DNA of 21,771 nt, taken from Phycisphaeraceae bacterium (GTDB lineage Bacteria; Planctomycetota; Phycisphaerae; Phycisphaerales; Phycisphaeraceae). The position numbers and the translations under genes were made by a program. The notes under the pieces were generated by a model. It did no database searches. It saw only the letters and a list, made by a program, of their open reading frames with translations, and had not been told where the DNA came from. Shown here piece after piece: positions 3,515 through 5,773 of this stretch (positions are counted from its first letter, which is position 1; each line of letters begins with the position of its first letter). The DNA is taken from the NCBI GenBank assembly GCA_020850375.1, contig JADZET010000141.1:1-21771 (forward strand). Direction: 5' to 3'.

Positions 3515-4489
3515 CTAGATCCCCGCCGCGTCGGTGAACTCGTTGGGGTCCAGCGGCACGTAGCCGTCCCGCCGTCGGGCGCTGACGCGCAGGTCCGGCG
3601 GCGTGACCGTCACCGTGTGGTGGGCCGGCACGGACTTGGTCAGGAACACCGCCCCGGCCACGGTGCACCCCTGGCCGATGACGGTTTTGCCGCCAAGGAT
3701 GATCGCCCCGCCGTAGATCGTCACGTCGTCCTCGATCGTCGGGTGGCGTTTGCGGCCGCGCCAGTCCTGGCCGCCCTTGGTCGACAACGCCCCGAGCGTC
3801 ACGCCCTGGTAGATCTTGACCCGCTTGCCGATGGTCGTCGTCTCGCCGATGACCACGCCCGTGCCGTGGTCGATGAAGAACGACTCGTCGATCTCGGCCC
3901 CGGGGTGGATGTCGATGCCCGTCTCGTTGTGGGCGTACTCGCTCATCATGCGCGGCAAGAGCGGCACCCGGAGCCTGTAGAGCTCGTGGGCGACGCGGTG
4001 GATGAAGATGGCGTCGAGGCCCGGGTAGCAGAAGATGACCTCGTCGGTGCTGCCCGCCGCCGGGTCGCCGTCGAAGGCCGCCTGCACGTCCGTCGCCAGC
4101 AGTCGCCGCAGCTCCGGCGCGCGGTCGAGCAAGGCGTCGGTGATCTCCTGGGCCCGCACGTCGAAGTGGTCGTTGGTGTCCCCCTCGCCGGGCTTGCGGC
4201 GGTTCTCGGCATGCCGCAGGGCCTGGCGGATCTGCTCGTAGAGGCTCTGGCGGACGTGCACGAGCAGCTCGCCGACGTGGTACGCGATCGTCTGGCTCGT
4301 CAGCCGCTGCTCCTCGAAGAAGCCCGGGAACACCAGCCGGCGGAGCATCTCCAGCACCCGGATCACCCGCGCCCGGTTGGGCAGGAACGTCGAGTTGAGG
4401 TGGTGCGTCCGGGCGTCGTCGTGGTAGCTCTGGACGATCCGCCGGACCAGCTCGGGGGTGTCGTCCGGACTGGTTTTGTCGTGGCTCAT
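3515..4489 (-). CDS. cysE: Serine O-acetyltransferase (EpsC/SatA-like, extended N-terminus)
   Basis: The enzyme acetylates L-serine with acetyl-CoA to O-acetylserine, the precursor of cysteine. The 324-residue protein has a long helical N-terminal part (about residues 1-180) and then a left-handed beta-helix of hexapeptide repeats (about 185-295). The catalytic pair Asp207-His208 lies in FIDHGTGVVIGET, and the second conserved His (about 249) lies in GRKRHPTIEDDV, the loop and repeat typical of CysE. The N-terminal block with FCYPGLDAIFIHRVAHELY is the family oligomerisation region. The long N-terminus fits the SatA/EpsC subgroup rather than the shorter enterobacterial enzyme. Upstream there is a TAAAAT -10-like box at 4532-4537 and a small hairpin (4505-4520) in the leader. 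The Shine-Dalgarno is weak. No O-acetylserine sulfhydrylase gene is adjacent. Confidence 0.95.
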   Translation of the reverse strand: MSHDKTSPDDTPELVRRIVQSYHDDARTHHLNSTFLPNRARVIRVLEMLRRLVFPGFFEEQRLTSQTIAYHVGELLVHVRQSLYEQIRQALRHAENRRKPGEGDTNDHFDVRAQEITDALLDRAPELRRLLATDVQAAFDGDPAAGSTDEVIFCYPGLDAIFIHRVAHELYRLRVPLLPRMMSEYAHNETGIDIHPGAEIDESFFIDHGTGVVIGETTTIGKRVKIYQGVTLGALSTKGGQDWRGRKRHPTIEDDVTIYGGAIILGGKTVIGQGCTVAGAVFLTKSVPAHHTVTVTPPDLRVSARRRDGYVPLDPNEFTDAAGI

Positions 4490-4531
4490 GGCGGTGATCC
4501 AGAGCCCGCCGAGGGGCGGGACAGAAAAGTC

Positions 4532-4537
4532 ATTTTA
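4532..4537 (-). promoter_or_regulatory. Candidate -10 box for cysE, followed by a leader hairpin
   Basis: On the minus strand the hexamer TAAAAT (5 of 6 to consensus) would start transcription near 4525, giving a leader of about 36 nt. That leader contains a CCCGCC/GGCGGG hairpin (4505-4520, loop of 4) ahead of the ATG at 4489. No convincing -35 box is seen. The location just downstream of a strong terminator at 4600-4628 supports an independent cysE promoter here. Confidence 0.35.
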
Positions 4538-4599
4538 GGATGTTCGCCCCCCGGAAGAAACCCCCGCAAGGAGCGCCTGTCGGAGAGGGGGCCGCCAAC

Positions 4600-4628
4600 A
4601 AAAAAACCGGCCCGCGTGAACGGGCCGG
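4600..4628 (-). terminator. Rho-independent terminator of the 4600-4854 unit
   Basis: On the minus strand a perfect 8-bp stem CCGGCCCG/CGGGCCGG with a 6-nt loop is followed directly by seven T residues (A run at 4600-4606 on the plus strand). It lies about 110 bases upstream of the cysE start and 300 bases past the stop of the isomerase gene, so it serves a transcript made within this gap. Confidence 0.85.
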
Positions 4629-4658
4629 CCTGGATCGGATCGTGAGTTCTTGTTCTCG

Positions 4659-4841
4659 TCAGCGCGACTTGCTCTGGGTGACTTGTTCGAACCCCAAATT
4701 TAGGTGGGTGCGTCGCCGAGTCATCCAGGCCTTCCGCTCGTAGACGGCTTGACCATCGTGCCCGAAAGCCAGCTCCCTTTGGGGTCTCAAAGGTTCGAAC
4801 AAATGCATCCCGCCAGAGCAAGCCGCGTAGACGAGAGACAC
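4659..4841 (-). CDS. Possible 60-residue small protein inside the structured transcript
   Basis: A GTG-started frame (or ATG at 4808, giving 49 residues) runs through the paired region and ends with TGA at the base of the outer stem. The product is basic and polar, with the segments FEPLRPQREL, YERKAWMTRRRTH and LNLGFEQV, no signal peptide and no membrane helix. Counting bases by codon position from the ATG gives GC highest at position 3, then 1, then 2, the order expected of coding DNA in a GC-rich genome. The sample is small, and third-position GC is visibly lower than in the neighbours. A GGAAAG lies six bases before the GTG. I do not recognise a family. It may equally be a chance frame in an RNA gene. 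Confidence 0.35.
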   Translation of the reverse strand: MSLVYAACSGGMHLFEPLRPQRELAFGHDGQAVYERKAWMTRRRTHLNLGFEQVTQSKSR

Positions 4842-4860
4842 TCTTCACTTTCCATGGCTG

Positions 4861-4886
4861 ATTATACCCGACCGCTTCGGTGTCAA
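4861..4886 (-). promoter_or_regulatory. Promoter of the 4600-4854 unit, with an inverted repeat over the -35 region
   Basis: Reading the minus strand, TATAAT (4861-4866) is a perfect -10 box. A perfect TTGACA (4881-4886) lies 14 bases upstream, which is short. A 17-base spacing gives TTCTTG instead. The TTGACA sits in the loop of an inverted repeat, CCGCTTC/GAAGCGG (4872-4878 and 4887-4893), which could be an operator or part of the 3' end of the upstream isomerase transcript. Confidence 0.55.
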
Positions 4887-4927
4887 GAAGCGGACAAGGC
4901 ATGAAAATGGTGAGCTGGGCGCTCGAT

Positions 4928-5773
4928 CTAGATCAGGCCTTGAAGCAGTTCGACGGCCTTGCGGATGTCCGCCACGCGCTGGTCGCCGGCCTCGCGTTCG
5001 ATCAGGAGTCCGCCCTTGAACCCTGACGAGCGGAGCTGGGCGATGAACGCCTTCCAGTCCACCTCGCCCTCGCCGACGGGAACCTCTTGGCCCCACGTCC
5101 CGGGCGTCTTGGTGCGGACCGCGTCCTTGATGTGCACCTGATGCACCCAGGGCTGGAGCTTCTTAAGTGACGCGATGGGGTCGCCCTTGTCATAAAGAAT
5201 CATGTTCGCCGGATCAAAATTCACCCCGATGTTGCGTGCCCCGGCCTGCTCGACGTCGGTGATGAAATCGACCAGCGTCTGGGCCGTCTCCTGACCGGTC
5301 TCGAGGATCAGGGTGATCCCGTAGGCCTGCATCACGCCCGCGGCGTGGTGGATGCGTTCGATGATCTTGTCCCGCCGTCCGCCGGCGTTGGCCTCGGGCA
5401 GGAAGCCGGCGTGCACGCTGACCGTCCGCAGATTCAGCGCCGCGGCCGCCTTCGCCGCTTGGTCGATCACCCGGCGGTTCTGCTCCCACGTCGCGTCGGG
5501 CACCAGCCCGCCGGTCCGGCGGATCGACTCGAGCGTCGAGTAGTCCTCGCCCACGCAGCCGAACATGCCCGTGAGGATCCACTGGTCCCTGGCCCTGAAG
5601 ATCGCCGCCAGATCCTTCCAGTCCGCGCTGTTCGTCCAGAGAGGGTCCAGGCCGATCTGCGTGTGGTTCAGGCCGGTCTGCGCCAACAGGTCCGAGAGCT
5701 CCTGCGCATTACGCGCGTGCAGGGACCAGCTGCACACGCCGATCGTGAACTGTTGCTCGGGACGCGGGACCAT
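4928..5773 (-). CDS. Sugar phosphate isomerase/epimerase-like TIM barrel (xylose isomerase-like, AP-endonuclease 2 fold)
   Basis: This is a metal-dependent TIM-barrel protein of about 281 residues, in the family that includes IolE, hydroxypyruvate isomerase and L-ribulose/tagatose epimerases. The substrate cannot be read from sequence. The first strand is FTIGVCSWSLH. Likely metal ligands are Glu in LILETGQE, Asp in VNFDPANMILYDKGDP, His in VHQVHIKDA and the late Glu in LLIEREAG. The start at 5773 (MVPRPEQ) is chosen because AGGAG at 5781-5785 lies seven bases before it. An alternative ATG at 5810-5812 overlaps the TGA stop of the upstream nagB-PIG-L gene by one base and would add 13 residues, so the pair is probably co-transcribed and perhaps coupled. 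The neighbour suggests a role in amino-sugar or glycan-derived sugar use. Confidence 0.9.
   Translation of the reverse strand: MVPRPEQQFTIGVCSWSLHARNAQELSDLLAQTGLNHTQIGLDPLWTNSADWKDLAAIFRARDQWILTGMFGCVGEDYSTLESIRRTGGLVPDATWEQNRRVIDQAAKAAAALNLRTVSVHAGFLPEANAGGRRDKIIERIHHAAGVMQAYGITLILETGQETAQTLVDFITDVEQAGARNIGVNFDPANMILYDKGDPIASLKKLQPWVHQVHIKDAVRTKTPGTWGQEVPVGEGEVDWKAFIAQLRSSGFKGGLLIEREAGDQRVADIRKAVELLQGLI

Follow-up and report, generated by a model that had tools for sequence, protein, structure and literature searches.

The minus strand of the window (the whole 21,771-nt stretch of Phycisphaeraceae bacterium DNA analysed here, contig JADZET010000141.1) carries at 4597-4866 a well-supported, free-standing gene for a structured RNA, equipped with a −10 box and a terminator of its own, and judged by sequence and alignment this RNA is a divergent member of a known family, 6S RNA (ssrS). 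6S RNA is well known in bacteria, where it parks RNA polymerase by imitating an open promoter. Members of this family are typically abundant, with levels that depend on growth phase, and they bind the sigma-70/A holoenzyme and serve as templates for pRNA. Taken as a whole, the data are very probably best explained by an ssrS gene of a planctomycete near Phycisphaeraceae, whose rod-like transcript would hold RNA polymerase and release it through a short pRNA and a collapse helix. While the kind of RNA is known, the added value is evidence against an absence of 6S RNA from planctomycetes, together with covariation of the release helix.

RESULTS

A free-standing RNA gene and its neighbourhood

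The features of the locus are as follows.

4866-4861, minus strand: −10 box of the RNA gene, an exact match to TATAAT in the sequence
4597-4856, minus strand: approximate 6S RNA (ssrS) transcript, ~255 nt including the terminator, both ends predicted
4600-4631, minus strand: intrinsic terminator, consisting of a hairpin of 12 pairs (4631-4604) and a run of seven T (4606-4600), from the sequence and a terminator scan
4657-4832, minus strand: Rfam 6S (RF00013) matched over the full model length (1-187), 36.2 bits
3515-4489, minus strand: downstream neighbour and synteny marker outside the RNA gene, a cysE-like serine acetyltransferase (hexapeptide repeat protein, Pfam Hexapep)

The earlier note on this DNA, which gave no strand, had proposed a structured RNA gene between a TATAAT box and a hairpin-plus-T7 terminator. 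Both elements are found on the minus strand, and with the folding described below they support such a gene well; with its −10 box and terminator the gene is also free-standing, like those of 6S RNA. The transcript would start near 4856. By eye, 9 of 13 sequences, the window among them, have an exact TATAAT upstream of the RNA, and L011, L012 and L084 have near matches, with no TATAAT-like box seen in L009; the distance of the box to the RNA varies among the 13 and is larger in L002 and L004. A promoter scan at 16-18 nt spacing found no sigma-70 promoter. A perfect TTGACA is located at 4886-4881, yet just 14 nt from the TATAAT, and the nearest relative (L001) has TTGACG, likewise 14 nt from its TATAAT. 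A 5′ leader of approximate form [AG]UGACAAGUGAAGA, located where the 6S RNA is predicted to start (4854-4841, minus strand), is conserved in many close relatives, and the loci with this leader are L006, L007, L010, L011, L106, L117 and L120. By eye, its first half seems unpaired, and its second half can lengthen the closing stem in some relatives.

Assignment to the 6S family

At Rfam curated thresholds no family matched anywhere in the window. When the 461 bases from 4480 to 4940 were searched by E-value with 4227 Rfam families, 6S was the best: RF00013 reached 36.2 bits and E 7.2e-6, below the curated cut-off of 46.4, and the runner-up family had E 0.026. In this alignment the 6S blocks GGGAGC, CAAGCC, GGAAG and GCACCCACCU are in place. 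Moreover, the syntenic orthologues in genomes G004 and G002 (loci L004 and L002) scored 69.2 and 63.8 bits, both above the cut-off, and because they lie at exactly the same locus, the family assignment is firm despite the sub-threshold copy in the window. The covariance-model search proposed in the earlier note thus led to a known family, at a score below the curated one. The RNA had there been called undescribed and without a match to 6S, and both statements were wrong in view of the full-length match, the two syntenic relatives above the cut-off and the covarying stems; the loose likeness to 6S RNA that it mentioned was the right lead.

The window RNA shares with RF00013 the rod with a central bubble, the four blocks, a match over the full length and the free-standing gene. 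It differs in its score, in its 5′ bubble, which is C-rich (CCUUUGAGACCCCAAA) whereas the Rfam consensus is A/U-rich, and in its length, ~255 nt including a longer closing stem and the terminator. That the copy in the window scores below the cut-off would also suit a new class of RNA that resembles 6S in shape only, e.g. a core-polymerase binder like Ms1 of actinobacteria. According to the available text of PMC9130861, Ms1 RNA is structurally related to 6S RNA and binds core polymerase. We consider such a class very improbable, given the rightly placed 6S blocks and the orthologues above the cut-off, and none of the five Rfam matches at E ≤ 10 bears the name Ms1.

Relatives of the locus and the cysE-like gene

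We take the product of 3515-4489 to be CysE-like, while Pfam gives Hexapep alone. A search with this protein gave Phycisphaeraceae bacterium SJ746 as the best relative (94% identity). Among the best 80 of 548 neighbour-protein loci in named genomes, BLASTN at E ≤ 0.1 found the RNA in 11 (L001-L007 and L009-L012) and gave no match in L013-L080, which are chiefly from other phyla; L008 starts within cysE, and the same genome carries the RNA on another contig (L084). The distance from the RNA core to cysE is at most ~350 nt in 10 of the 11 loci, and in L005 the RNA lies ~3.6 kb upstream. In 16 related genomes searched with RF00013, 11 matched at E ≤ 1 and five did not; three matches were above the cut-off, two of them at this locus, and in 8 of the 11 the best match stayed below it. 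6S genes are usually single-copy, and the nearest relative (G001) has one RF00013 match at E ≤ 1, which is this locus. In 19 of the 30 loci found with our first model, R1 (L104-L133, where L108 repeats locus L001) the 6S RNA gene lies upstream of a same-strand cysE-like gene. A protein encoded nearby in the window was also used for a viral search; no relative was confirmed, and the outcome does not bear on the RNA gene.

This neighbourhood could suggest that the RNA acts in cis on the cysE-like gene, as a leader or attenuator, with the hairpin at 4631-4604 as a regulated terminator for cysteine synthesis. RNA and gene are on the same strand with the terminator between them, the gene follows downstream in those 19 loci, and it is close by in all but one of the 11 RNA-bearing cysE loci from named genomes. 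A leader, however, should always precede its gene, and 10 of the 30 model-R1 loci have no cysE match within ~1.5 kb, in one cysE is on the opposite flank and runs the other way, and the 16 other above-cut-off loci examined, from both classes, all lack cysE within ~1.5 kb, i.e. 11/30 and 16/16 loci are without downstream cysE in that range (L081 and L082, which are above the Rfam cut-off but outside those 16, do have cysE). The distance in L005 and the coverage of the whole RNA by the 6S match likewise speak against a leader, and we give this explanation very little weight.

A rod with a central bubble

The structural elements of the RNA, all on the minus strand, are listed in the following.

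4836-4830 with 4660-4654, minus strand: outer helix of the closing stem, 7 bp (fold)
4827-4815 with 4675-4663, minus strand: middle helix of the closing stem, 13 bp with one G-U (fold)
4654-4675, minus strand: 3′ strands of the closing stem, 4675-4663 and 4660-4654 (fold)
4804-4793 with 4692-4681, minus strand: 12-bp helix of the fold
4792-4804, minus strand: P2 5′ strand AUUUGUUCGAACC, beside the bubble; the predicted pRNA template runs on into it (covariation)
4785-4791, minus strand: 5′ central bubble UUUGAGA (alignment position), with the pRNA start predicted inside UUU by analogy
4778-4784, minus strand: CCCCAAA of the distal 5′ bubble, collapse-helix partner, CCCC being 4784-4781 (covariation)
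4772-4777, minus strand: GGGAGC, start of the internal stem, paired with GCACCC (GGG/CCC paired in 99.2% of cells)
4706-4711, minus strand: GCACCC, 3′ strand of the internal-stem start (alignment pairing)
4702-4710, minus strand: CACCCACCU, conserved 6S motif leading into the 3′ bubble (alignments)
4692-4698, minus strand: UUUGGGG, collapse-helix 3′ strand, of which GG 4693-4692 also pairs with the P2-terminal CC (covariation, fold)
4681-4693, minus strand: P2 3′ strand GGUUCGAACAAGU (covariation)

The 260 nt of the minus strand folded with −120.3 kcal/mol (z = −5.71), and 0 of 200 shuffles were as stable. The plus strand of the RNA region also folded well (z = −4.25), as expected of an inverted repeat, and the 126-nt core by itself was unremarkable (z = −1.69; 12 of 200 shuffles as stable). 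In the minus-strand fold the two halves pair colinearly through helices of 7 bp, 13 bp with one G-U, 3 bp, 2 bp and 12 bp. The colinear pairing and the helix places had thus been given rightly before, but the cuts between helices differ from the 6, 15 and 11 bp proposed then. Closing stem, central bubble and long internal stem together form the rod typical of 6S RNA.

The palindrome GUUCGAAC occurs in each strand of P2 (4800-4793 and 4692-4685, minus strand), by which two copies of the RNA could pair with each other; the P2 words with this palindrome resemble the T-arm of tRNA. The apical hairpin has an extra insert in L122, L138, L139, L141, L154, L155, L161, L163, L166 and L167.

Stems are kept by compensatory changes

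An alignment of 82 sequences (81 distinct) to our first model, in which nucleotides beside P2 pair with the distal 5′ bubble as CCCCAA/UUGGGG, had 89.2% of its cells paired. Two-sided changes were seen at 29 of 35 pairs, as would be expected of evolutionarily supported 6S stems, and amounted to 404 cells where shuffling gave 123 on average, with 0 of 500 shuffles as high, where the shuffles ignore relatedness. In a control with slid partners, paired cells dropped from 89% to 33-63%. The stems are thus kept by compensatory changes in homologues, the check that had been proposed for them.

These data also bear on a coding stretch or a chance inverted repeat. Open frames cross the gap mechanically, but with frames counted from a common anchor over the full 260-nt span none of the six is stop-free in all 13 homologues, and neither a coding stretch nor a chance repeat fits with covarying stems and a folding z of −5.7. 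Hence the conserved reading frame with broken stems that was named earlier as a possible refutation was not found: no stop-free frame is common to the 13 homologues and the stems are kept. We regard the probability of either explanation as negligible. In sum, cysE leader, coding sequence, chance repeat and Ms1-like RNA were rejected on account of synteny gaps, stops, covariation and 6S blocks.

Distribution in Planctomycetota

In the class of G001, RF00013 matched 95 of 198 genomes at E ≤ 0.01, 50 of them above the cut-off, and a model from 13 cores matched 70 of 397 genomes at E ≤ 0.001. In the class of G410, a Pirellulales genome, 93 of 148 genomes matched RF00013 at E ≤ 0.01, 55 of them above the cut-off; the two classes are probably Phycisphaerae and Planctomycetia. 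Nine further genomes were reached via loci, of which four were above the RF00013 cut-off, and two Pirellulales genomes among the nine (G410 being one) gave no RF00013 match. Within the order of G410, 10 of 77 genomes matched at E ≤ 0.001, three above the cut-off, which points to loss or strong divergence of 6S RNA in this order.

In the available text of PMC5673643, no 6S gene was found in Thermogutta terrifontis, and Wehner et al. 2014 is cited there for an absence of 6S from two planctomycetes. The low rate in the order of G410 (10/77) fits this printed absence. Going by the matches above, Planctomycetota as a whole does not lack 6S RNA. We found no report of a planctomycete 6S RNA in the accessible portions of PMC5673643, PMC2864571 and PMC8567305, which cover the literature in part; the screen in PMC2864571, as far as its available text goes, also turned up divergent 6S representatives, with details in an additional file.

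Two possible partners of GGGG next to the bubble

Two alternative pairings are possible by sequence for the GGGG next to the bubble. One is with the closing stem P2, the other with CCCCAAA of the distal 5′ bubble, the latter pairing being the putative collapse helix of up to 7 bp, 4 of them G-C, whose GG is shared with the CC of P2. As the first model contains CCCCAA/UUGGGG, its alignment leans to the collapse helix, and we therefore built a second, open-bubble model without this helix, to which the 82 sequences were realigned (structure-neutral alignment). There, the first two collapse-helix pairs hardly vary. Pair 39/198 was paired in 52 of 82 sequences (shuffled mean 36.4, maximum 49 in 1000) and had 15 two-sided changes (shuffled maximum 11), and pair 33/202 was paired in 80 of 82 (shuffled maximum 78). 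At 41/196, 45 sequences were paired, with up to 46 in shuffles, and at 36/201 there were 58, with up to 62, so that neither pair exceeded all shuffles. Parsimony on the tree gave 19 double changes across the six collapse-helix pairs (4, 2, 10 and 3 at the four varying ones), with losses of 7, 2, 2, 11, 18 and 13 across the six.

In an alignment-free test, in which 3′ strands were swapped among sequences, the mean helix was 5.09 compared with 4.41 after swapping (maximum 4.64 in 1000; 81 of 82 rows, L137 having dropped out, and relatedness ignored). The same test on the best-scoring Rfam-model loci alone gave 4.42 versus 3.86 in the first class, where none of 1000 swaps came as high (31 rows, i.e. 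29 loci and two later-reached ones), and 4.48 versus 3.86 in the second class, with 4 of 1000 as high (23 of 25 entered rows). This test left out L095, L195 (an empty row), L221 (duplicate) and L201 (without anchor), and kept rows with misread 3′ anchors, namely L182, L188, L192, L204, L206, L208, L211, L214, L215 and L220. Some 6S loci (L097, L100 and L102) are without the collapse helix. The predicted helix shows covariation in these comparisons, whose shuffles and swaps all ignore relatedness, and what is known of the B. subtilis type is found here as complementarity, covariation at two of four varying pairs and the outcome of the swaps.

The P2-terminal CC pairs with GG 4693-4692 in 82 of 82 sequences in the alignment fitted to that pairing, and the same GG pairs with the first two C of CCCC in 66 and 80 of 82. 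Core energies of the two states are close, with −39.7 kcal/mol for the bubble held open and −42.3 kcal/mol with the collapse helix. The collapse helix is not in the minimum-energy folds of the window and of the L007 core; the L007 core has neither helix, and in the window the 3′ bubble forms a CCCA/UGGG hairpin. Its presence there would favour a refolding of GGGG into this hairpin, in the style of E. coli, instead of a cross-strand collapse helix. We consider this unlikely, because the nucleotides before GGGG covary with those after CCCC on the opposite strand, as in CCCCAU/AUGGGG, CCUCAA/UUGAGG and CCCCGA/UCGGGG, while by eye the CCCA block (4708-4705) is near-invariant without matching change. 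The cross-strand pairing with CCCCAAA is the form used in the following.

DISCUSSION

The observations on gene anatomy, family match, synteny and covariation of P2 and the collapse helix allow a mechanism to be proposed, in which the order of refolding would follow known 6S biology. The rod with its central bubble would imitate an open promoter, and housekeeping RNA polymerase holoenzyme would be bound and kept inactive. When nucleotides return, polymerase would copy a short pRNA from UUU at 4791-4789, a start chosen by analogy. The predicted pRNA, approximately 5′-AAGGUUCGAACAAAUG, would extend into the P2 5′ strand and displace the P2 3′ strand GGGGUUCGAACAAGU. The freed GGGG might then form the collapse helix with CCCCAAA in the distal 5′ bubble, by which the bubble would close and expulsion of the polymerase would be helped.

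Similar refolding is described in the available text of PMC8876501, where the central bubble collapse helix of Bacillus subtilis 6S-1 and of Aquifex aeolicus 6S forms once pRNA synthesis opens P2, and in B. subtilis a stabilised collapse helix with a weakened P2 led to more effective release. In both RNAs the alternative helix joins the distal 5′ bubble with the P2 3′ strand, just as proposed here; it was inferred there from probing and tested with mutants in B. subtilis (PMC8876501, available text), whereas here it comes from covariation. E. coli 6S belongs to the same family, and by analogy pRNA-driven release would be expected here too. The E. coli RNA uses a 9-bp hairpin in the 3′ bubble (PMC8876501, available text), whereas only the short CCCA/UGGG is possible in the window RNA.

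The present data would correct the record, as print has 6S RNA absent from two planctomycetes and not found in a third, and many planctomycete 6S genes fall just below the database cut-off. They also provide natural covariation data on the release of RNA polymerase from 6S RNA, for which PMC8876501, in its available text, relied on mutated or shortened RNAs from a single model species. For Planctomycetota, we slightly favour the view that 6S RNA is common and that compensatory evolution has kept a two-state switch, in which one GG is common to the mutually exclusive P2 and collapse helices. If the two-state switch reading is true, it would be comparative evidence for the collapse helix as a selected release device.
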